DNA of 20,395 bases from a virus: IMG/VR virus record IMGVR_UViG_3300006853_000473, positions 1-20,395 of that record, one strand, 5' to 3'. A program made the translations under genes and the position numbers. Below are positions 3,250 through 18,644 of this stretch, one piece after another. Within the stretch, counting starts at the first letter, position 1. Each line of letters begins with the position of its first letter. The notes beneath the pieces are model-generated. The model saw only the letters and a list, made by a program, of their open reading frames with translations, did not search any database and was not told the origin of the DNA.

Positions 3250-5412
3250 ATGGCCGAAATGTCCGCCAACGACGAACCCGCCACCGAAGGCCCGTCTTCC
3301 ATTTCCACGGATGAGGGCGACGGCAAGCGCGGGAATCGTACCGCCAAACTCTTGCGCTCCGGCATCGACTCGTGCCGCCGGTTGCGCCGCGAACTCGTCG
3401 ATCGCTGGCAAGACAACGTGGCGTTCCGGACCGGCCGCCCGTTCAACGAAACGCCCGACACCGATACGGTCAACATCCCGGCGGATTGGTCGCGCACCAA
3501 GAACAAGCAGGCGCAGCTCTTCGCGGTCCTCCCCGATCTCAAGCTCCGCTCGCGCAACCCGAAGTTCCAACCGCTCTCCCCATTGGCCTCCGCCGCTCTC
3601 AACTTCGAGATGCGGGAACGGATCCACGCGGAATACCCGATGGATGAGTGCGGCGGCGACGTCATCAACGCTGCGGGCCTCATGGCGGCGCGCGTCATCT
3701 ACACCGCGGTCTTCGGTGATCCGCAAAAGGTACCCGTTGGCGACGTCACCGGGATCCCGCCCGAAGACTTGGAACAGATGATCGCGGGCGATCTCATTCC
3801 TACGGAAGAAGTGCGGCCGACGCTGTACGAGTGCTACGACTTGGAGCGCGTCTCGCCCGCTCGCCTCCTGTGGCCGGTCGAATTCCGCGGGTCGAATTGG
3901 CAGAAATCTCCCTGGCTCGGGCACGACGGGCACATCGCGATCGAAGAGGCGCGGCGCCGCGGGTGGGTGGATGACGACTACGAACCCGAAGAGGCGGGCG
4001 AGACAACCGTCGATGAATTGCTGTCGGATGAAGATCACGAACTCAAGCTCCTCCCCTCCGGCCGCTACCTCCGGTACAGCGAACTGTGGTACCGCGCGGC
4101 CTTCTACGACGCGACTGAGCGTCACCCGCGCAAACTTCGCCACATGGTTTTCATCGACGGGATCGATGAGCCTGTCGTCGACGAAGATTTCGCGTGGCAA
4201 GAATGGGTAGAGGGGAGCGAGGGTGAGCCTCCCTCCCCACAGGCCCCACAAGGCGTTCCTCCGTCGTCGGGTCGCTATATCGGGATGACCGATTTCCCGA
4301 TCAAGGTCCGCACCCTCACCTACATCTCGGATTCCGCGATCCCGCCATCCGACTCCGAGATGGGCCGCCCGCAAGTGAAGGAGATGATTCGATCGCGCTC
4401 GCAGATGATTCGGCAGCGCGAGCATTCCCTCCCGATCCGCTGGTTCGACGTGAACATGGTCGACGAGGAGATCGCCGCCCAACTACGCGCCGGGGTCATG
4501 CAGGACATGATCCCGATGAACGGGCCGGGCAGCAACGCGATCGGCGAAGTGGCGCGTGCCAACTATCCGCGCGAGAACTTCGAGTTCATGCGGATCTTCA
4601 ACACCGATCTCGATGAAACGTGGTCGATGGGCGCCAACCAGATGGGCATCGAGGCCCCTGGCGACCAGTCAGCGACGGAAGCGAAGATCGTCCAATCTTC
4701 CGGCAACGTCCGCATCGAATACGAGCGATCGAAGTACCTGTCGTTTTACGTGGAGTGTGCCCAGGGTGTGTTTGCCCTCATGCAGCTCTTCTCCGATTAC
4801 ACCGATTACGTTGAGGTGATCGGGGATAACGGGGTACGCACGCTCCAACAGTGGAACAAGGACAAGATCCCCGGCGATTGGATCTTCGAAGTCAAGCCGG
4901 ATGCGGCCGTCCGCGTCGATATCAATCAGCGCAAGCAAGAAATCCTGAACGTCTACAAACTCCTGCGCCGCGATCCGCTGATCAACCCGAGCGCGGTGAT
5001 CATGGAACTCTGCGAGGTGTACGGGCTGGATCCTGCGCGGTGGATCGCGCCGCCGAAAGAAGAGAAGCCACCGGCGCCGAACATCCGTTACTCGTTCAAG
5101 GGCGACGATACCCTCAATCCGTTTGTCATTGCGTTGATTCAGAAAAGTCCGAATCCCGTCACCGCTCAGGACATCGCCCAGGCGAAGGCACTCTTGACCG
5201 ATGCCTTGTCGATGATGCCGCAGATCGCCGAAGCGGTGCCCGGCGCGGTGAAGGATCCGACCGCCGAAGCGCGGCAGAAGGCCGACGCGAAGAATCAGCC
5301 GCATCCCGGCCCGGCTGCGACCGTCCAGCCCCTCAATCGCCGCTATGAAACGTCCGAAGACGCCGCGGGAACCGTGACCCAGGCCGCCGGTCCGCAAGGA
5401 AGTGCCCAATGA
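3250..5412 (+). CDS. Portal protein (720 aa)
   Basis: The portal forms the dodecameric ring at one capsid vertex through which DNA enters and leaves and to which terminase and the neck dock. Assignment rests on its position directly after the large terminase, its size (720 aa, like the long portals of P22-type podoviruses) and a portal-like sequence: a charged N-terminus, a region around residues 199-226 with the pattern RVSPARLLWP...SPWLGHD, a long helical middle, and a charged, Pro-rich disordered C-terminus from about residue 650. An in-frame ATG at 3259 is an alternative start. A perfect palindrome TTTCGCGAAA (3229-3238) lies in the short gap before it. The stop overlaps the next gene by four bases. 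Confidence 0.88.
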   Translation: MAEMSANDEPATEGPSSISTDEGDGKRGNRTAKLLRSGIDSCRRLRRELVDRWQDNVAFRTGRPFNETPDTDTVNIPADWSRTKNKQAQLFAVLPDLKLRSRNPKFQPLSPLASAALNFEMRERIHAEYPMDECGGDVINAAGLMAARVIYTAVFGDPQKVPVGDVTGIPPEDLEQMIAGDLIPTEEVRPTLYECYDLERVSPARLLWPVEFRGSNWQKSPWLGHDGHIAIEEARRRGWVDDDYEPEEAGETTVDELLSDEDHELKLLPSGRYLRYSELWYRAAFYDATERHPRKLRHMVFIDGIDEPVVDEDFAWQEWVEGSEGEPPSPQAPQGVPPSSGRYIGMTDFPIKVRTLTYISDSAIPPSDSEMGRPQVKEMIRSRSQMIRQREHSLPIRWFDVNMVDEEIAAQLRAGVMQDMIPMNGPGSNAIGEVARANYPRENFEFMRIFNTDLDETWSMGANQMGIEAPGDQSATEAKIVQSSGNVRIEYERSKYLSFYVECAQGVFALMQLFSDYTDYVEVIGDNGVRTLQQWNKDKIPGDWIFEVKPDAAVRVDINQRKQEILNVYKLLRRDPLINPSAVIMELCEVYGLDPARWIAPPKEEKPPAPNIRYSFKGDDTLNPFVIALIQKSPNPVTAQDIAQAKALLTDALSMMPQIAEAVPGAVKDPTAEARQKADAKNQPHPGPAATVQPLNRRYETSEDAAGTVTQAAGPQGSAQ

Positions 5413-6002
5413 AAGCCGTAATCCTCGCACTCACCCTCGCCTTGACCGCGGCATGCGGCCCCATTTACCCGGCCGCCCTCCTCCCCGCGCGGATCGAGAT
5501 GGCGCGCACCTCGGGGTTGTTCCTCGGTGACCCGCGCCACATTCAGGGCCGATCACACGAATGGGCGCTCGAACCTCTCGTCGCGTTTGCCAAATCGCGC
5601 GGCGTCGAAGTGTCGTTCGATGGTACCGGCGGGATGACACATGATCGCTTGGCAGGTGCCTACTCCCGTGAATGGAATGTGATCTTCATCAACTTGGACA
5701 TCTCGACGAATTTCCAAGTCAGTACGCTCGCGCATGAGATCGCCCATTCGATGTTGGAACCCAAGATCGGCGTGGAAACGGCGGAAGTCCTCGCCGAAGC
5801 GATTGCATTCTTCGTGATGCAGAAGATCGGCCTCGATACGGCGGTCGAGTCGTTAAAATACATCGCGCGCTACCCCGCCGACATTCGCGATCGTGTCCTG
5901 ACGTTCCGCGATCGTGAGATCGAAGAAAAATCGACCGCGATCGCTGCATTCATCCTCCCGTATCGCCCGAAGGTGCAACCGCATGGCTCTTCCGCTCATT
6001 AA
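5409..6002 (+). CDS. Secreted or lipoprotein zincin-like metallopeptidase (197 aa)
   Basis: An N-terminal hydrophobic segment (residues 3-15) is followed by Cys16, giving a signal peptide with a possible but weak lipobox (Thr at -3). Residues 107-113 hold the zinc-binding HExxH motif (HEIAH, 109-113), and a glutamate-bearing helix follows at residues 125-135 (AEVLAEAIAFF), the arrangement of gluzincins such as the ImmA/IrrE and ArdC C-terminal domains. It therefore probably binds zinc and may cleave protein. It sits between the portal and scaffold genes, overlapping the portal stop by ATGA. Possible roles are a cell-envelope protein altering the infected host, an ejected protein, or a maturation protease. 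An exported enzyme in a head module is unusual. The substrate is unknown. Confidence 0.72.
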   Translation: MKAVILALTLALTAACGPIYPAALLPARIEMARTSGLFLGDPRHIQGRSHEWALEPLVAFAKSRGVEVSFDGTGGMTHDRLAGAYSREWNVIFINLDISTNFQVSTLAHEIAHSMLEPKIGVETAEVLAEAIAFFVMQKIGLDTAVESLKYIARYPADIRDRVLTFRDREIEEKSTAIAAFILPYRPKVQPHGSSAH

Positions 6003-11328: not shown

Positions 11329-11994
11329 GTGACGTTCAAGCAGGCACAGGATCGCGTTATGGGGCGGCTGAACCTCACGAGTGCAGACGCCCGTACGCGC
11401 ATCAAGGAATTTCTGAACGAGCGTTACCGCGAACTCCAAACCTCGGTCGGCCTCGGGCGGGTACGTCGGACGACCGGCACACTGAACACCGTGAACGGTA
11501 CGCCGACGTACACCCCCGCGGGCTTCATCAAGATTTTCCAGATTGCCTATCCCGCGGGCAACAAGATCCTCCTCGAAAAGTCGGAGGATTACATCCGCGA
11601 GGTGGATCCGAATCTCAACAAGGTCGGCGATCCCGAATACTTCGTCACACAGAAATTCACCGCGACCGGCGTGGTGATCCGGATTTGGCCGACACCTACT
11701 TCTGTGATGGTCCTCAACGTCGACGGGTTGGCGAGCGGGACCGAATTGAGCGCCGATGGGGATGTCCCGGCGTTCCCTGAAGACTTTCACGACATTCTCG
11801 TCTATCACGCGCTCGCGGATGAACTCGACAAGATGGAGAAGCCCGATCTCTCCTCGAAGATGGCAAAGCGCGCCGAAAAGCGTACGTCCGAACTCCGCTA
11901 CTTCCTGGCGAAGTCGGCTTACCTCTATCGCCAGCAGGGCACACAGTTTTGGTGGTGGGGTCCGCATCTCAGTCGGCCGTACGGATGGGCGTGA
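11329..11994 (+). CDS. Head-tail adaptor-like protein (221 aa, GTG start)
   Basis: The first 50 residues form amphipathic helices with the pattern RI-x-EFLNERYREL typical of ring-forming phage adaptor (head-completion) proteins, which bind under the portal and connect it to the tail. The middle (50-140) is beta-rich, and the last third returns to helices, ending in an aromatic WWWGP-type tail. Position between the capsid and tail genes fits. The start is GTG 11329, preceded by AAGGGGGTG, because no ATG exists at a sensible place. No enzymatic motif is visible. It could alternatively be a P22 gp4-like neck protein without the muramidase activity. Confidence 0.65.
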   Translation: MTFKQAQDRVMGRLNLTSADARTRIKEFLNERYRELQTSVGLGRVRRTTGTLNTVNGTPTYTPAGFIKIFQIAYPAGNKILLEKSEDYIREVDPNLNKVGDPEYFVTQKFTATGVVIRIWPTPTSVMVLNVDGLASGTELSADGDVPAFPEDFHDILVYHALADELDKMEKPDLSSKMAKRAEKRTSELRYFLAKSAYLYRQQGTQFWWWGPHLSRPYGWA

Positions 11995-12003
11995 GGTTGC
12001 GTC

Positions 12004-14601
12004 ATGGCATCTCGCCCCCCTCTCCCTGAACCGTTCCTCCTCCGCGATCTGCGCGGGGGGATGGAGAACACCGACGAGCCGCAGGCCATCCCCGAGAACA
12101 TGGTCGCCGACGCGCGCAACATCGATTGGATGTTGGGGACCATCGGCGGCAAGCGCGCGGGATGTTCGAGTCTGTCGGTTGATGCCTCCGTGTTGAATCG
12201 CGTCATTCCGATCCGCGCGCAGACGGCGACTGGCGGGGTGACGGGTGGCGCGAGCTTCAACATCTCCGTTCCCGCGACCACGAACGATGGAACCGGGACG
12301 ACGTTCACCGCGATCGTGGTGCGTATTTCGACCAAGGCCAATACCGATGTGACGGCGGTCACATATGGTGGCGTCGCCTTGACGGAGCGGTCGGCGGATA
12401 ACTCCGGGGCTTCAGGCCGATTGGAAACGTGGGCGCTCACCGGCGCCTCGCTCGCAGGCGGCACGGTGGCGGTCACCCTGGCCGGGGCGTGCGATGCGGC
12501 CGGAGTGGCAGAGTTCTATCAACGTGTCGATCTCCTCACGATCGGCGCCGCCGGGGCGTCAGCGATCAACACGCAGCCGCGCGTGACCACGGTCACCGAT
12601 CCCACGTTCCTCGTCACCGCGGGCTTCTCCTACGATACGGGTGCCACCGGGACGACTCCGTTGTTCGCACCCGTCGCCAGCCTCTCGCAAGGCAACGCGC
12701 GGCTGTGGGTCGCGTCTGAACAGGGAAGGAAACCGAGTACCGTCAATTGGTTCACCCTTTCCGCCTCCAAGGAATGGGTCGGTCGCTCGCTCACGCTTCG
12801 TGGTGCGCCCCTCTCCAGTTTTACGGCCGTGGGCTTCACTTTTCTTGCGGTGATGCGGCACACGCCGACCATCAATTTGTCGGAAGACGAATTGTGGATG
12901 GTCGATCTGTTCGGTCGTATCGATCGCCGGGTAGGCGGGACGTGGCAAACCGGCGTCCCCGTCGTCAACTATTACATCGGTGTGTTTGATTCCACGGGAC
13001 TGGACATCAACGGCGCCAGTCTGCACGGCAAGTTCTTCATCGCCGCGCAGCAAGTCATCAACGGCTTGCTCGTGTGGGATGGAACCATCTTGCGGCACGC
13101 GGGCTTCCCGAACGTCCCACCCGCGCCAACGGTCGCCAGTACCGCGGGCGTAGGCACGTATTCAGGCACGCGGTACTTCCGTATCCGGTACACGGCGCAG
13201 GATGGCAGCGGGCGCACGTTGCGGCGCTCTGAACCCACCACCGTCACGGCCTTTGTTCCCGGCGGGGCCAATGACGGCGCGGTGATCACCAAACCGAGCG
13301 GAACCGAGGATTACACCTCCCTGTTCATGAATGGGCAGACCCATTGGGAAGTGGAAGCCTCGCTCGATAACACCATCTTCTATCGCATCGCGACCGTCGC
13401 CATCGGCACCGCTACTTACACCGATACCACTGCGCTCGGGACGACGTACAGCAGCAACCCGGTCAGCGAATCGATTGGTGAGTACGTCGCTCCTGGCGCC
13501 GTCCGACACATCGCGGTCGATGACGATCGCTTGATGATGGCGGGCAACCGCTTCACCCAGGGAAGCGATGCGCGCGTGCAATGGACGCCGGTCGCCCTAG
13601 CATCAGGTGTCGGGAACGATGAGCGCATTCCGGCGACGACTGGCAACACGCTCGATCTCGACAACCTCGATGGCGGAGGCGTCACGATGATGATCGCCGG
13701 TGAGTCGGGCAACGTGTACGCCTTCAAAATGGAACGGACGTACAAGCTCACCCGTACCGGCATTCTGACGGATGCGTATCGCCATCACACGGAGAGCCAT
13801 TCGCGCGGCGCCATCATTCGCGCGGCGTGTTCCGGCCACGCACGGACAGCCCAAGGATGGGCGCCCTGCGTCTATTTCGTCGATCCCGCGGTGGGACTGT
13901 GCCGCGCCTCGCGCGACGGCATTCAGGAACTCGGTGAGGCGGTCCTCGATACGTGGGAGGCGGCGGAAAAGGGTACCGCCTCGGTCCGCGGCCCGAGGAT
14001 CGCGTACCACCCGACGAAGCGGCAAGTGTGGGTCGCCTACGGCGCGAATGGCAGCGACATCCCCAACAAGCTCCTCGTCTACACCGCGCGGTACGGTGGG
14101 TTCGCGATATACGAATCGCCGCTCATGGACAACGGGATCTACGGCGACATTGTGATGTATCCGGATGGCGGGTTGCCCCTCTTGCCCGTCATAGGCATGC
14201 TCAACCCGCCACTCGTGAAGTTCCCCGTGGATGCGATCACCGATGCGGGCCATCGGTATCGCGCGTACTTCCTTTCGCGCGCCTATCATCTCGGCATCTA
14301 TCAGAAGTTCGGTGTCGTGGCGGGCTTGCTGTTCGCACGTGTCGCCAATTCGACGATCGGCATCAAGTTGATTCGCAACCTGGGGCTTGGCACCAACTCC
14401 GTGACCAAGAGCATTGCCTCCTCCGGCGGCAGTGAGACCCACGTCTTCAAGCCTATCGACGACGCGAGGATTTCCGAGTGCAACGTGGTGCAGTTTGAGA
14501 TCGGCGACCCCTCAACCTTCTCCGGCTCCCAACTCGATCAGTCGTGGATTCTGGATGAGTACATCGCCAAGGTGCGATTCGAGGAAGAGAGCACGAGCTA
14601 A
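12004..14601 (+). CDS. Large tail hub or stabilisation-type protein with inserted domain (865 aa)
   Basis: In short-tailed phages the large protein following the adaptor forms the tail hub (beta-propeller in P22 gp10). This one is almost all beta, with repeated strand-turn blocks through residues 270-865, including DELWMVDLFGRIDRRVGGTW near 294-313, a fibronectin-like segment at about 370-480, and DDDRLMMAGNRF near 505. Residues 1-70 read as the same protein's N-terminus (RDLRGGMEN, then a YxG-type strand), but residues about 72-258 form a separate Thr/Ala/Gly-rich beta domain containing VTYGGVALT and a Gly-Thr-Val-Ala-Val-Thr strand, which looks like an inserted Ig- or lectin-like module. 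GAGGTTG precedes ATG 12004. Its stop overlaps the fibre start (TAATG). Confidence 0.68.
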   Translation: MASRPPLPEPFLLRDLRGGMENTDEPQAIPENMVADARNIDWMLGTIGGKRAGCSSLSVDASVLNRVIPIRAQTATGGVTGGASFNISVPATTNDGTGTTFTAIVVRISTKANTDVTAVTYGGVALTERSADNSGASGRLETWALTGASLAGGTVAVTLAGACDAAGVAEFYQRVDLLTIGAAGASAINTQPRVTTVTDPTFLVTAGFSYDTGATGTTPLFAPVASLSQGNARLWVASEQGRKPSTVNWFTLSASKEWVGRSLTLRGAPLSSFTAVGFTFLAVMRHTPTINLSEDELWMVDLFGRIDRRVGGTWQTGVPVVNYYIGVFDSTGLDINGASLHGKFFIAAQQVINGLLVWDGTILRHAGFPNVPPAPTVASTAGVGTYSGTRYFRIRYTAQDGSGRTLRRSEPTTVTAFVPGGANDGAVITKPSGTEDYTSLFMNGQTHWEVEASLDNTIFYRIATVAIGTATYTDTTALGTTYSSNPVSESIGEYVAPGAVRHIAVDDDRLMMAGNRFTQGSDARVQWTPVALASGVGNDERIPATTGNTLDLDNLDGGGVTMMIAGESGNVYAFKMERTYKLTRTGILTDAYRHHTESHSRGAIIRAACSGHARTAQGWAPCVYFVDPAVGLCRASRDGIQELGEAVLDTWEAAEKGTASVRGPRIAYHPTKRQVWVAYGANGSDIPNKLLVYTARYGGFAIYESPLMDNGIYGDIVMYPDGGLPLLPVIGMLNPPLVKFPVDAITDAGHRYRAYFLSRAYHLGIYQKFGVVAGLLFARVANSTIGIKLIRNLGLGTNSVTKSIASSGGSETHVFKPIDDARISECNVVQFEIGDPSTFSGSQLDQSWILDEYIAKVRFEEESTS

Positions 14602-16475
14602 TGCGCCTCGTCAATCCTTATCGCGAGGAGTTGCGCGGGGTCGGCGATTGGATGCTCACCCTGTGGGACAGCTTGCTCGCGTCGATCGCTGGATCTTGGG
14701 CCAAGGAACACACCGATGACGATCGGCACGGGCATGTCCATGCGACCACGCTGCAAGTCGGTCGCCTCAGCTTCTCGACGATCCTGACTCCGGCGCCGTT
14801 CACCTCGGCGACCATCCACAATTTCAACGATGAGCGGTTGCGCGACGCGGGCCTCCTCCGTCTCTCCACCACGCTCGCCGAATGCACGATCACCGGCATC
14901 CAAATTCCAGTTGATGAATTGGGCAACGTGCTCGATGGCCGCGTCCTCGTTATCGAGAATGCGTCGGACACCGGAGTCCTGATCTTAGAGCACGAACACA
15001 CCGGCAGTACTCCCGCGAATCGCTTTGCCCTCCCCTACAATCCGGCCTCGGTCACCGGCGCGACGAACCGTTATTTCCTCCCGCCGAAGACGATGACCGC
15101 GATTGTCTCGGATTCCGCGGCGGCGCGATGGCTGTTGCTGTCACGCACGCATGACGAGGTGATGTCGTACGCGGAATTCGGGTCGAATCAGAACGATTAC
15201 GCGCCCGCCAACTTTCGCGCGGCGCGTGTAGTGCGGCTAGTTCCCACGGCGGCGAATCTGACGATCACCGGGTTCAGCGCCACGAACATCTCCGCCCCGT
15301 CGCGTAAGACGATCATCAACGAAGGGATCTATCGGTTCGCGATCCTTCATATGAACACCGGCAGCACTGCTGCGAATCGTGTGCAGTGCCCGGCGGGTTC
15401 GATGTATTACCTGAATCCACGCGAGTCGGTAGACATCTACCGTGAGACGGATGGGACGTGGCACATCATCCTGAAAGCCGATCAGTGGGTGGACGTGCCT
15501 TTCGCGGCGGGGAATTTCACCGCGAGCGCGGGGTCATGGACCGTCACGTCGGACGATCAACACTATTTCGCTTACCAGATCGACGGCAACAAGATGACCG
15601 TCGATTTCGAGATTCACAACACTGACGTGAGCGCCGCGCCGGGGGAACTGAGGATCACGGTTCCCGCCGGGCGCACCATTGCCCGCGATGCGCGAAACCC
15701 GATCTCCGTGGCCGATGCGGGTACGTTTCAGATCGGCATATGCGTCGCGACGGCCGGGCTGACCCACTTGAAGTGTTACGCCAATGGCGCCTACGGGGGT
15801 TGGACGACCACCGCGGGGGATAACACGTATGTCATGGGTCAGATCACCTTCATGGTGGAGACGAGCTGTGCGACGGTGAGCGAACTGCACACCGATGCGG
15901 CCCATCAGGATACCGCGCACGCGGATGCGAGCCACAGCGACGTGGCCCACGTGGACACCACCCACGTCGATACCCACAACGATGTGGCACACGCGGACGC
16001 CGCGCACGGTGATTCGGCGCACGCCGACGCCCATAGCGATGTCGCGCACTCGGATGTCGCGCATGAGGACGTGGCCCACGTCGACGGCGCCCATCAGGAC
16101 ACCGCGCATCAAGACGTCGCCCACGACGATCAGCACGGCGACGAAAACATCGACTTTCAGGATGGGTTCATCCACCAAGATCAGCACATCGATCTGCACT
16201 TCGACACACCCCACACCGACGTGGCGCATGCCGATGCCTCGCACGGCGATTCCCATTCCGACGTAGCGCACGTCGACGTTGCCCATGCCGACACGCACAG
16301 CGATGCGGCGCATTCCGACTCGGGGCATTCGGATACCCCGCACTCCGATTCGCATTCGGACACGCCGCACGCGGACACACCGCACACAGATGGCGGGCAC
16401 TCCGACACCCCGCACGCGGACGTTCCGCATACCGACGTCGGCTATCACTGCGACACGACGCACTCTGATATTTGA
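14601..16475 (+). CDS. Tail fibre protein with C-terminal His-Xaa-Asp repeat array (624 aa)
   Basis: Residues 1-50 (helical, then His-rich) look like a virion-attachment segment. Two related beta units follow, about 85-182 and 210-292, sharing a CTITG or LTITG strand, a GSTxANR loop and a strand ending in ...W; this is a tandem duplication typical of fibres. Residues 300-420 form another beta domain with aromatic strands. From His430 to the end (195 aa) the protein is an array of 39 H-x-D motifs spaced four or five residues apart, in blocks 430-514 and 525-624 split by a 10-residue linker. The frame starts at TAATG overlapping the preceding stop. I infer a receptor-binding fibre whose tail is either a metal-binding tip or a substrate for the radical SAM enzyme at 17328. 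Exact fibre family not recognised. Confidence 0.8.
   Translation: MRLVNPYREELRGVGDWMLTLWDSLLASIAGSWAKEHTDDDRHGHVHATTLQVGRLSFSTILTPAPFTSATIHNFNDERLRDAGLLRLSTTLAECTITGIQIPVDELGNVLDGRVLVIENASDTGVLILEHEHTGSTPANRFALPYNPASVTGATNRYFLPPKTMTAIVSDSAAARWLLLSRTHDEVMSYAEFGSNQNDYAPANFRAARVVRLVPTAANLTITGFSATNISAPSRKTIINEGIYRFAILHMNTGSTAANRVQCPAGSMYYLNPRESVDIYRETDGTWHIILKADQWVDVPFAAGNFTASAGSWTVTSDDQHYFAYQIDGNKMTVDFEIHNTDVSAAPGELRITVPAGRTIARDARNPISVADAGTFQIGICVATAGLTHLKCYANGAYGGWTTTAGDNTYVMGQITFMVETSCATVSELHTDAAHQDTAHADASHSDVAHVDTTHVDTHNDVAHADAAHGDSAHADAHSDVAHSDVAHEDVAHVDGAHQDTAHQDVAHDDQHGDENIDFQDGFIHQDQHIDLHFDTPHTDVAHADASHGDSHSDVAHVDVAHADTHSDAAHSDSGHSDTPHSDSHSDTPHADTPHTDGGHSDTPHADVPHTDVGYHCDTTHSDI
15888..16472 (+). 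repeat. DNA encoding 39 His-Xaa-Asp units
   Basis: The 585 bases encode H-x-D every four or five codons. His codons mix CAC and CAT, Asp codons mix GAC and GAT, and the middle residue varies widely (S, A, T, V, Q, G, E, N, D, I, F, C). Only His and Asp are invariant, so selection is on the protein rather than on a recent DNA duplication. Interspersed pairs are mostly Val-Ala, Thr-Pro or Thr-Ala. The reverse strand has a long open frame caused only by the periodicity. Confidence 0.95.
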
Positions 16476-16483
16476 GGGTCATC

Positions 16484-17035
16484 ATGGCGAATCTCGCAGA
16501 CATCCTGACGCAAGCGATGCTGAATTCGGGATTGGCGCAATATCCCGACGCGAAGTTGTACAACGCCGCCAAACTCCTGTTGCCGGAAGAGCGGCCGATC
16601 GTGCCGGTGGAGATGGCCCAGGACGATTGGCGCACGAAACAGGGCGTGGAGGCGCAGTACTTCGGCGAGATCAACAAGTACAATCCCGATCGCCAGCGGA
16701 TCACGGTGCAGCGCAAGGGAGACCCGTACAAGAAGTTCGAGAAGCAGCCACACCGGCTCGCGGGAATCCTGGCGCACGAAGCCGAGCACTCCAAACGCAA
16801 CGATCCGTTTGAGGCGCCAGCTTACCGGAAACATAAAGAGGTGCTGTTGCGGCTTGGGGAAAAGGATAAGGGGTTCCTTACGGCAATGGACGCGGCGATC
16901 GCGCGGCACGAAGGTCTCGACGAGGAACAGCGGGTGAAAATGGCGAAAAAGGCCGCCATCGAACAAACGGCGAAAGCACCCCTCCCGCTCCTCCCGGTGC
17001 CCCGCTCTCCCCTTCAGGCGGCGTTTGCGCGATAA
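16484..17035 (+). CDS. HExxH metallopeptidase-like protein (183 aa)
   Basis: Residues 93-102 (AGILAHEAEH) contain HExxH (98-102), and Glu110 with Tyr114 follow in DPFEAPAY, the spacing of zincins that use a downstream glutamate as third zinc ligand. The protein is soluble, with no signal peptide and a Pro-rich C-terminus. Start ATG 16484 has GAGGG at 16474-16478, five bases of spacing, beginning inside the fibre stop codon. It lies directly between the fibre and the maturase genes, so it may process the fibre or its modified tail, or act as a virion-associated hydrolase; this is inference. A non-catalytic structural role cannot be excluded. Confidence 0.75.
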   Translation: MANLADILTQAMLNSGLAQYPDAKLYNAAKLLLPEERPIVPVEMAQDDWRTKQGVEAQYFGEINKYNPDRQRITVQRKGDPYKKFEKQPHRLAGILAHEAEHSKRNDPFEAPAYRKHKEVLLRLGEKDKGFLTAMDAAIARHEGLDEEQRVKMAKKAAIEQTAKAPLPLLPVPRSPLQAAFAR

Positions 17036-17060
17036 TACCCGCCTAGGTGGAGGTGGGTAT
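17035..17060 (+). promoter_or_regulatory. Hairpin covering the ribosome site and start of the 27-aa gene
   Basis: Bases 17035-17044 (ATACCCGCCT) pair with 17051-17060 (AGGTGGGTAT) over ten base pairs with one G-T pair, loop AGGTGG. The 3' arm includes most of the GGAGG ribosome site and the first two bases of the ATG at 17059. In RNA this would mask translation initiation unless opened by upstream ribosomes, heat or a protein. There is no T tract, so it is unlikely to be a terminator. Confidence 0.6.
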
Positions 17061-17142
17061 GTCCGATCTCGTGTTCTGGACGCTCGCGATGGTGGTGGCT
17101 GTCGTGTTCTCGTGGTTGGAAGGGAAAGGGAAGAAGGCGTAA
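17059..17142 (+). CDS. Tiny single-span membrane protein (27 aa)
   Basis: ATG 17059 opens a 27-codon frame ending at TAA 17140-17142. Residues 4-19 form one hydrophobic transmembrane segment (Leu, Val, Phe, Trp, Ala) and the last eight residues are charged (Glu, Lys), giving a membrane peptide with a cytoplasmic basic tail. GGAGG at 17049-17053 is five bases upstream of the start, the strongest ribosome site in this part of the window. It is too short for automatic callers. Function unknown; possibilities are a lysis-associated peptide, an anchor for neighbouring proteins, or nothing at all. Confidence 0.5.
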   Translation: MSDLVFWTLAMVVAVVFSWLEGKGKKA

Positions 17143-17156
17143 GTAGTTACCCGTGC

Positions 17157-17189
17157 GGCATGGTCCCTGCACAGGGATCCCCGCATGCC
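17157..17189 (+). promoter_or_regulatory. Hairpin covering the start codon of the 48-aa gene
   Basis: GGCATG (17157-17162) pairs with CATGCC (17184-17189), which contains the ATG at 17185, and inside it TCCCTG (17164-17169) pairs with CAGGGA (17172-17177), which contains the ribosome site AGGGA. A short internal loop separates the two helices. Both the ribosome site and the start codon would be hidden in the folded RNA, as at the 17035-17060 hairpin. Confidence 0.55.
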
Positions 17190-17331
17190 AAACGGACGGG
17201 ACGAACTCCTCGCGATCGCTGAAGTTCTCAAGAATCGTTTCCCTAATCTCTCGACGAAGGAAACGATCGCCCTCGCCTTCGACATCCTCGAAGCTGTACG
17301 CGTAGTGCAAGCTGCCCAGGTTCAGAAGTGA
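17185..17331 (+). CDS. Small helical protein overlapping the maturase start (48 aa)
   Basis: ATG 17185 begins a 48-codon frame ending at TGA 17329-17331, whose first bases overlap the GTG start of the radical SAM gene (GTGA, 17328-17331). The protein is charged and mainly helical: an Asn/Arg/Asp start, an amphipathic helix rich in Leu/Ile/Ala and a Val/Gln-rich C-terminal helix. Ribosome site AGGGA is seven bases upstream. Tight coupling suggests it works with the maturase, for example as a partner or peptide-binding helper, but it is too short to be a standard RRE domain and I find no precursor-like repeat in it. It could also serve only to deliver ribosomes to the next gene. Confidence 0.55.
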   Translation: MPNGRDELLAIAEVLKNRFPNLSTKETIALAFDILEAVRVVQAAQVQK

Positions 17332-18644
17332 GTATCGAACTCCTTCCCCTCGGGCAGCGGTGCAATCTCAAATGCCCATACTGCTATGAGAATGCCATGC
17401 GCGAGGCAGGTAACGAAGACCCGATCGAAGGCAATTACGACTTCGACAAGATGTTCGCCGCGCTCAGGAACGAAGGGGTAGGGTCTCCCGATGTACGCGG
17501 CGGGAAGACAGGCTTTACCCTCTTCGGCGGCGAACCCCTCCTCCTTCCCTTAAAGGATCTCGAACGCATGTTTTCCTGGGGGAAGGGGTTAGGGGTACCC
17601 ATCTCTATCCAAACCAACGCGAGCTTGATCACCGATCGCCACCTCGATTTGTTCGTTCAGTTCGGCGTGAGCGTTGGTGTCAGTATCGATGGACCGAAGG
17701 AATTGAATCGGCTGCGCGCGTCGGAGACTATCGAGGCGACGGATCGGACGACAGACTTATCGAATCAGGCGTTCTTGAAGCTCCTCGCGCGTGGGATCGG
17801 CGCGAGCCTGATCGTCACGCTGTCGACAGTGAACGCGGGCGCCGATGTCATCAAGTACTTGTCAGGGTGGATCGTCGAGCTGTACCACCGAGGACTTCGC
17901 CACGTCAATTTCCACCTCCTTGAAGTCGACGGCGACATCGCGCAATATGTCCTCCCGCCAGAAGAACAGATTGCCGCGCTCCGAAAGCTGCGATCCACCG
18001 TGCAGTCGTGTGCCGGGTTGCGCGCCATGCCCTTCGACAGCATGCGCGCTCTCCTCATTGGCGAGGATGAACAGAACGTCGAATGTATCTGGCACGCGTG
18101 CGACCCGTACACCACGAATGCCGTGCGTGGAATCGACGGCCAAGGGAATAGGGGTAATTGCGGGCGCACGAACAAGGATGGGGTGCCCTACGTGAAGGGC
18201 AGCGTCGCCGGGTACGAGCGGCAGCTCGCCCTGTACCTCACCCCGCAGGCGCATGGCGGGTGCCAGGAGTGCCGGTTCTTCTTCGCGTGCAAAGGCGAAT
18301 GCCCAGGCACGGGCGAGGGAAGTGAATGGAGAAGCCGCACGACGCACTGCGCGAGCTTGATGGCGATCTTCGCGGATCTCGAACAGGAATTGATTGGGGA
18401 AGGGAAGACTCCGTTGTCGTCATCGTTGATGCGACCGGCGATCGAGGCGGCGTTGCTCCGCTCGTGGTCCTCCGGTCAGAATGTGAGCATTGGTGCGGCG
18501 TTGAGGCAAGGCGCCACCGGCAGCGGCATCGTGCCGCACGGCGATGTACCGCACGGAGATGTGCCGCACGGCGATCACACCGACGCGGAGAGGCCGGTAC
18601 GGACGCACGGCGATCACGGTGATGCGGAGAAAGCGAGATCTTGA
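17328..18644 (+). CDS. Radical SAM/SPASM peptide maturase with C-terminal H-x-D tail (438 aa)
   Basis: The enzyme uses a [4Fe-4S] cluster to cleave S-adenosylmethionine and drive a radical modification of a peptide or protein. Cluster motif CxxxCxxC is at Cys12, Cys16, Cys19 (CNLKCPYC); the SAM-binding GGEP is at 67-70 and SIDGP at 119-123. A complete SPASM domain carries the auxiliary-cluster cysteines in the canonical pattern: Cys258-x14-Gly-x4-Cys278, then Cys312-x2-Cys315-x5-Cys321-x3-Cys325, and Cys341. From residue 404 the protein ends in six H-x-D motifs like those of the upstream fibre. GTG 17328 overlaps the 48-aa gene's stop, so it is translationally coupled. The likely substrate is the fibre's H-x-D array (inference). 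Sulfatase maturation is the main alternative, but no sulfatase is in the window. Confidence 0.93.
   Translation: MSIELLPLGQRCNLKCPYCYENAMREAGNEDPIEGNYDFDKMFAALRNEGVGSPDVRGGKTGFTLFGGEPLLLPLKDLERMFSWGKGLGVPISIQTNASLITDRHLDLFVQFGVSVGVSIDGPKELNRLRASETIEATDRTTDLSNQAFLKLLARGIGASLIVTLSTVNAGADVIKYLSGWIVELYHRGLRHVNFHLLEVDGDIAQYVLPPEEQIAALRKLRSTVQSCAGLRAMPFDSMRALLIGEDEQNVECIWHACDPYTTNAVRGIDGQGNRGNCGRTNKDGVPYVKGSVAGYERQLALYLTPQAHGGCQECRFFFACKGECPGTGEGSEWRSRTTHCASLMAIFADLEQELIGEGKTPLSSSLMRPAIEAALLRSWSSGQNVSIGAALRQGATGSGIVPHGDVPHGDVPHGDHTDAERPVRTHGDHGDAEKARS
18537..18623 (+). repeat. H-x-D motifs at the end of the maturase gene
   Basis: Six motifs (four with few residues between them at residues 404-419, then a pair at 427-432) repeat the HGD or HTD theme, with VP as the commonest spacer. 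This is the same motif class as the 39-unit array in the fibre, about 2 kb upstream. Confidence 0.9.

Follow-up and report, generated by a model that had tools for sequence, protein, structure and literature searches.

Radical chemistry of the type acting on ribosomally synthesised and post-translationally modified peptides (RiPPs) is known mainly from small peptides. In the Hxs system, HxsA carries His-Xaa-Ser repeats and is accompanied by HxsB, HxsC, and HxsD. The seven-cysteine SPASM signature, found in part of the radical S-adenosylmethionine (SAM) enzymes, reads C-x9-15-G-x4-C ... C-x2-C-x5-C-x3-C ... C. In the virion itself, the HK97 capsid chainmail is formed by autocatalytic Lys-Asn isopeptide bonds between subunits. 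The system studied here lies on virus record IMGVR_UViG_3300006853_000473, of which positions 1 to 20,395 make up the whole stretch of DNA analysed (the window); it consists of a phage fibre protein ending in an array of His-x-Asp (HxD) motifs and a radical SAM/SPASM enzyme encoded downstream of it. As described in the available part of PMC11002830, three-residue cyclophane synthases crosslink residues i and i+2: YxdB joins Tyr-Asp, HaaB His-Ala, YhhB His-Arg, and OscB and XncB join Phe-Asn, OscB acting on Trp-Asn or Trp-Asp as well; the dynobactin enzyme forms two crosslinks, one of them C-C and the other C-N. In the Thermus phage Cumys, an enzyme and a DUF483 gene have been named an rSAM module and proposed to modify DNA, because related genes occur near deazapurine genes in cyanobacteria (PMC11437467, available part).

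On sequence evidence, the HxD arrays are very probably the substrate of the radical SAM/SPASM enzyme, and the product would be, with a probability of roughly two in three, a crosslink from an aromatic ring to a beta carbon. Both conclusions are drawn from the linkage of arrays and enzyme, the aromatic-x-Asp/Asn grammar, and the kinship of the enzyme to cyclophane families. Many uncultured phages and three Thermus phages carry such arrays near an enzyme that probably crosslinks them, and it is plausible that the purpose of the modification is mechanical.

Linkage of the arrays and the enzyme

The fibre protein of the window contains 40 HxD motifs, and 39 of them start at residues 430-621, within the last 195 residues; the initial annotation had likewise counted 39 at the end of the protein. 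The 39 gaps between motifs comprise 28 of five residues, eight of four, and one each of 6, 13, and 393, the last leading from an isolated motif at residue 37 to the start of the array. When the last 194 residues, which include all array His except the first, were shuffled 5000 times, the mean was 8.2 HxD and the maximum 17. At the DNA level, the highest self-match over the lags tried was 52% (at 15 bases), and the codons are mixed, with 27 CAC and 12 CAT for His and 23 GAC and 19 GAT for Asp. Therefore, the repeat exists at the level of the protein and is not a tandem repeat of the DNA. A chance or low-complexity origin of the window array is ruled out by the shuffling and the DNA self-match.

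IMG/VR was scanned for DNA coding four HxDxx units, blind to the enzyme, and the counts that follow are among the matches listed. A dense array was defined as an open reading frame (ORF) with at least 10 HxD in 100 residues, and a DNA tandem repeat by a self-match limit of 0.75, chosen after inspection of 18 arrays. The 119 loci listed included 49 dense arrays, of which 42 were non-tandem and seven were tandem repeats. A related enzyme was found for 34 of the 42 non-tandem arrays, 31 times in the locus DNA and three times elsewhere in the record (L007, L083, L101); a hidden Markov model built from only four enzymes matched the same 31 loci. By array similarity the 42 arrays fall into 31 clusters, and in 27 of these at least one member is accompanied by the enzyme. 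The enzyme was present in none of the seven tandem-repeat loci (locus DNA and whole record) and in one of the 70 non-array loci (locus DNA). With a stricter self-match cut of 0.60, picked after the counts were known, 32 of 36 arrays have it. These loci are not independent, since among the 31 one (L118) is a near-copy of the window and another (L051) is the record of an enzyme seed (L003); some records occur under several loci, and many are fragments. As a separate observation, the 205,857-base record of L057 (G007, 139005-141845) holds near-perfect HTDTA-type tandem arrays in a 2312-residue open frame, and no enzyme was detected in that record.

Starting from the enzyme, a profile of 22 enzymes, most of them from array loci, was used to scan IMG/VR, and the best 80 of 143 relatives, forming 56 enzyme clusters, were analysed, an array here being an ORF with at least seven HxD in 100 residues within the locus DNA. 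An array ORF occurs in 76 of these 80 viral loci and ends at most 1 kb upstream of the enzyme in 67. Among the loci without an array, L138 is an 8-kb contig, L200 is a 4-kb contig, and the locus DNA of L141 reaches only about 0.35 kb ahead of the enzyme ORF. The initial annotation had suggested looking for the enzyme near HxD-array proteins in other phages, and across diverse phages this proximity was confirmed from both sides. Two enzyme copies, in tandem or at the same locus, were seen in L052/L198 (one record), L173, L182, L188, L201, and L203.

When 50,697 phage records were searched at the protein level, six had any match to the enzyme and three had a match over at least 80% of its length, namely the Thermus phages Cumys, phiMa, and phiLo, at 42-47% identity to the window enzyme (46.9% for Cumys and 46.6% for phiMa). 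All three have arrays of at least 53 HxD within 9 kb either side of the enzyme. Cumys_13 (54 HxD) and phiMa_29 (53 HxD), counted per stop-to-stop ORF, lie directly upstream of it, and phiLo has three array ORFs (72, 101, and at least 23 HxD) on the opposite strand, beginning some 4.4 kb beyond the enzyme. Since they carry the module, it can be tested in cultured phages. In the uncultured record of L003, there are two arrays, one of which is inside a J-type tail-hub protein (PF13550, phrog_31); therefore, at least one array sits in a recognised tail protein.

Cellular relatives were also collected. A scan of genome assemblies gave at least 415 relatives, of which the best 80 were retained, and the 22 closer ones (L208-L229), bacterial and archaeal, were examined. 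An ORF with at least six HxD is present in 14 of the 22 loci, Acidobacteria, Nitrospinaceae, and Chengkuizengella being examples. In L208-L223, L228, and L229, the cellular enzyme ORF has at most one HxD among its last 100 residues, and L224-L227 carry an HxD tail. In L224, a contig of a Candidatus Diapherotrites archaeon, Trp-x-Asp and Trp-x-Asn units were noticed among the HxD motifs, together with an enzyme that has an HxD tail.

Array grammar and the proposed reaction on the motif

Residue preferences were examined in 95 non-redundant arrays with 2896 HxD, using gaps of 8-12 residues in which one unit is missing. Where His is lost and Asp is kept, the His position is aromatic in 49 of 64 cases (Tyr 28, Phe 21), as compared with 7.6% aromatic residues in the spacers (binomial p 8e-42 when positions are taken as independent, which those of related arrays are not). 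At comparable positions that lack Asp or Asn at +2, an aromatic residue occurs in 51 of 627. With Asn at +2, the residue is Phe in 45, Tyr in four, and Trp in three of 108, and where Asp is lost and His is kept, Asn takes its place in 33 of 47. Counted by array, the replacement before -x-Asp is aromatic in 34 of the 95 and non-aromatic in 11, and that before -x-Asn is aromatic in 14 and non-aromatic in 36, so that the Asn case rests on fewer arrays. Over whole arrays, H-x-D and F-x-N each reach 5.2 times expectation, H-x-N 1.9, and Y-x-D 1.6, while -x-D units that open with Q, R, K, N, L, M, or P are depleted to 0.14-0.29 of expectation. In the window array, Phe-Gln-Asp is an aromatic-x-Asp unit standing where an HxD is missing; the surrounding gap, at 13 residues, falls outside the range of 8-12 used for the counts.

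A similar pattern is seen in 20 orthologous array pairs, which include one tandem-repeat pair (L027/L114) and within-record pairs of two array genes. Differing sites amount to 38 of 541 for His and 33 of 531 for Asp, as compared with 698 of 3074 for spacers; His changed to Phe or Tyr in 15 of the 38 and Asp to Asn in 23 of the 33. Pro occupies the middle of the motif in four of 2896 cases versus 642 of 7358 spacer positions. The dense array ends at most 60 residues from the C-terminus in 89 of the 95 ORFs (41-1476 residues, some cut by locus ends), and 49 of the 95 share an N-terminal domain of about 95 residues with GSxWxEG...YxD..G-like repeats. Many arrays were also seen to have a short HxDxPxxxGP-like C-terminus, and the L190 record (G022:C1:15963-16031) has DNA reading HCDQSHCDQGHCDAPHSD, in which Cys takes the middle position of the motif.

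The enzyme begins 852 bases downstream of the fibre stop and was annotated at the outset as a radical SAM/SPASM protein with all canonical cysteines; the ORF positions and the sequence comparisons agree with both statements. It scores 49.1 bits against Pfam Radical_SAM (cut-off 29.5). In an alignment of 51 sequences, CX3CX2C (C12, C16, C19) is invariant, as are C258, G273, C278, C312, C315, C321, C325, and C341, which together give the SPASM signature. All 51 match NCBIfam models for maturases of the cyclophane or related kinds, among them DynA, AmcB, YhhB, XyeB, and FxsB, the DynA model being matched by every one of them. An AlphaFold2 model (predicted local distance difference test, pLDDT, 89.4; predicted template modelling score, pTM, 0.86) has ChlB and an anaerobic sulfatase maturase as its nearest solved folds. 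The enzyme itself holds seven HxD, of which six lie at residues 404-430 and five are HGD, in a tail (residues 403-438) that is mostly below pLDDT 50. Of 71 non-redundant viral relatives, 65 have at least two HxD in their last 130 residues, and 71 of the best 80 viral enzymes have at least two in their last 120. The C-terminal HxD motifs of the enzyme were absent from the initial annotation; the extent of this HGD tail among relatives and the DUF483-like gene are two regular parts of the module that lay outside it.

The proposed mechanism is that the phage module modifies its own tail. The enzyme would abstract a hydrogen atom and bond an aromatic ring (that of His in most cases, sometimes that of Phe, Tyr, or Trp) to the Asp or Asn beta carbon at +2, and the reaction may take place at many positions along the array. 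The tail of the fibre would thereby become a chain of three-residue rings, with up to 39 HxD and one FQD in the window, and such a chain would stiffen the fibre tail and protect it against proteases.

Several observations weigh against this reading. Eight of the 42 non-tandem arrays have no detected enzyme. Four of these (L054, L060, L061, L121; self-match 0.61-0.71) resemble simple repeats, and the other four (L026, L055, L077, L087) look like real arrays. L026, L055, and L077 are one array family, whose sister L083 has an enzyme at least about 43 kb away in a 105-kb record, where it adjoins other arrays (L151); in L087, the array sits at the edge of a 10-kb record. From the enzyme side, the 156-kb record of L203 gave no match to a three-unit HxD pattern. 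In cells, eight of the 22 relatives have no ORF with at least six HxD in the locus DNA, although the protein just upstream in one of them, Nannocystis (L212), ends in four HxD, and in L218, counted among the 14, the HxD frame merely overlies the enzyme gene. In the grammar, F-x-D (1.1) and W-x-D (1.2) are near expectation, W-x-E (eight seen, 2.1 times expectation) and Y-x-Q (25 seen, 1.6 times) exceed it, and orthologous His changed to Gly seven times and to Ser five times. The window enzyme is below the cut-offs of the named cyclophane families listed, at best 65.7 versus 445 bits for YhhB, followed by AmcB (61.3/425), FxsB (45.3/370), XyeB (40.1/450), and GrrM/OscB (37.9/310). Its top profile match among solved structures is an anaerobic sulfatase maturase, and its score against the corresponding family, TIGR03942, is also below cut-off (64.4 versus 349.45 bits).

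Because of that top profile match, another reaction on the same motif is possible, such as epimerisation, modification at the beta carbon of Asp or Asn, or N-C bonding from His. It has the same linkage of arrays and enzyme and the same grammar in its favour, and it may draw on the match of all 51 enzymes to DynA, given the mixed C-C and C-N crosslinks of the dynobactin enzyme (PMC11002830, available part). Phe and Tyr in place of His are suited to ring chemistry and not to a reaction on the His nitrogen only, and epimerisation would need no aromatic residue two positions before Asp or Asn; this alternative appears unlikely. Far less probable is metal-ion binding by the His and Asp residues of the arrays, with an unrelated role for the nearby enzyme. 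Both residues are classic metal ligands, and the HDD-rich repeat of L060 has no enzyme in its record; metal binding is nevertheless disfavoured because Phe would not be accepted and Glu should serve like Asp, whereas Phe, Tyr, and Trp replace His, Asn replaces Asp, and the equally good ligand Glu is avoided (H-x-E at 0.22 of expectation). The two-way linkage and the presence of the same motif in the enzyme's own tail also speak against it. The DNA modification proposed for Cumys, by which the adjacency of the arrays would be fortuitous, seems the most improbable of all: its basis is the deazapurine neighbourhood in cyanobacteria (PMC11437467, available part), and it is opposed by the arrays at 76 of 80 viral enzyme loci and on several bacterial contigs. 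The text of that paper on Cumys, as far as available, contains no mention of an array or of repeats in the adjacent gene Cumys_13. Overall, ring-to-beta-carbon crosslinking of the arrays remains the preferred reading.

Partner and neighbouring genes

A DUF483-like gene is present in 127 of 139 enzyme loci, a count given both by a profile that includes the methyltransferase and by the DUF483 part alone; in the 12 loci without it, the DNA ends within about 1.4 kb of the enzyme ORF on at least one side. Among 132 DUF483-like ORFs, 118 have [FY]PxCC and 103 have HxPCxxxC, and an alignment of 30 proteins has C104, C105, H155, C158, and C162 (numbered as in L158) as invariant positions. Scores against the Pfam DUF483 model are below the cut-off of 25 (19.7 for L003 and 20.4 for phiLo), and Pfam gave nothing at E 0.01 for Cumys_11, which is annotated as DUF483. 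In many copies, the C-terminal end is a methyltransferase domain (PF13489 in L003). A Foldseek search with the DUF483-like part listed 50 matches, all of them methyltransferases or proteins resembling these, and the solved structures matched by its sequence are methyltransferases (among 60 of 191 listed). Among the 22 genome-assembly enzymes, seven carry the DUF483-like part as a fusion. The window ends before this gene; L002, which has an identical enzyme, carries it about 2.8 kb past the enzyme (Table 1). The DUF483-like/methyltransferase protein probably performs a second tailoring step.

The structural genes of the window are co-oriented, in the order terminase, major head protein, SU10-type adaptor, 865-residue protein, and fibre, and the fibre is assigned to this structural block because of the SU10-type head-tail adaptor. 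The 865-residue protein has a weak PHROG match to an internal virion protein (E 0.067). Residues 1-430 of the fibre share 35-43% identity with the region outside the array in other array proteins (L113/L131, L133, L093/L132, L079); no Pfam or NCBIfam family was matched at E 0.1, and the sole PHROG match (E 0.043) has no known function.

Between the fibre and the enzyme there are two small ORFs, of 187 and 48 residues. Relatives of the former, apart from copies of this phage, are only in L158 and L113/L131 (one record), and the latter has none among the fetched loci except copies of this phage; with few relatives or none, both were dismissed as parts of the module. The tight spacing first described for these genes holds at the outer ends, where the larger ORF overlaps the fibre stop and the smaller one the enzyme start, but about 150 bases separate the two. 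Besides the HEAEH of the larger ORF, a second HExxH-type ORF (HEIAH) was observed at 5409-6002 of the window, and an HExxH ORF lies at most 1.5 kb before the enzyme in eight of 121 plus-strand enzyme loci, some of which are copies of one record.

Table 1. Coordinates of the features; plain ranges refer to the window, and prefixed ones to other loci.
Feature	Position	Strand	Basis
SU10-type head-tail adaptor	11329..11994	+	PF24175, 57.6 bits vs cut-off 27
865-aa protein directly upstream of fibre, presumed tail structural	12004..14601	+	ORF
Fibre/tail protein, 624 aa, presumed substrate	14601..16475	+	ORF, motifs, relatives
HxD array, 39 motifs, residues 430-623	15888..16469	+	Motif count; spacing mostly 5 or 4
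Phe-Gln-Asp, residues 519-521, inside the only 13-residue gap of the array	16155..16163	+	Sequence
187-aa ORF with HExxH-like HEAEH	16472..17035	+	ORF
48-aa ORF overlapping enzyme start	17185..17331	+	ORF
Radical SAM/SPASM enzyme, 438 aa, GTG start, presumed array maturase	17328..18644	+	Radical_SAM Pfam, cysteines
C-terminal HxD tail of enzyme, five HGD and one HTD	18537..18623	+	Motifs; predicted disordered
DUF483-like/methyltransferase gene	L002:12119-13768 (about 21.4-23.1 kb in window coordinates, beyond window end)		
Arrays with common N-terminal domain, examples	L192:7120-7998, L004:7952-8989, L040, L188		

Significance and comparison with known systems

One possible overall scheme, which is slightly favoured, is that a shared phage machine, composed of the enzyme and a DUF483-like partner and often a methyltransferase, turns long aromatic-x-Asp/Asn arrays on the tail proteins of phages of several tail types into chains of His-Asp rings, a covalently stiffened virion polymer, and that the bacterial chromosomal relatives act on the same motif in cellular proteins. 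If the arrays are crosslinked, viruses would apply RiPP-type radical chemistry to a structural protein, with dozens of sites on each chain, which would be a new route to a stiff, protease-resistant fibre. The arrays would also provide a very large natural set of substrates, with all 2896 HxD as candidate sites, for a family of enzymes able to accept His, Phe, Tyr, and probably Trp. In addition, the DUF483-like family would gain a testable job, and the radical SAM genes of these phages would serve virion assembly and not DNA or host metabolism.

No description of this array-enzyme system was found in the literature, as covered by titles and the openings of abstracts, with subscription papers mostly outside. 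Like the Hxs system (PMC9062424, available part), the phage module has His-containing three-residue repeats beside radical SAM/SPASM enzymes. The initial annotation had cited this likeness in proposing each HxD as a substrate site. While the substrate sites are supported by the linkage and the aromatic-x-Asp/Asn grammar, the likeness does not extend to the motif, since H-x-Ser is nearly absent from the 95 phage arrays, at 0.03 of expectation (nine seen versus 325 expected by composition), and the HxsB model is matched weakly, by 48 of the 51 enzymes (best E 1.7e-11).

The triceptide systems (XncB, OscB, MscB, YxdB, HaaB, YhhB) share with the phage module a radical SAM/SPASM enzyme that adjoins a substrate with aromatic-x-X3 motifs, and Asp or Asn as X3 and His, Tyr, Phe, or Trp as the first residue are all known there (PMC11002830, available part). 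They differ in that their substrate is a small precursor peptide with a leader, whose product is freed by proteolysis, whereas the putative substrate of the phage module is in most cases a large phage protein carrying tens of motifs; the phage module also adds the HGD tail of the enzyme and a regular DUF483-like partner, and the window enzyme is far below the NCBIfam family cut-offs. With the rSAM module of Cumys and phiMa, the same enzyme family and the DUF483 neighbour are shared. Finally, the HK97 chainmail resembles the proposed system in that covalent crosslinks strengthen the phage particle; it differs in that here an enzyme would make the crosslinks, as rings within one chain.

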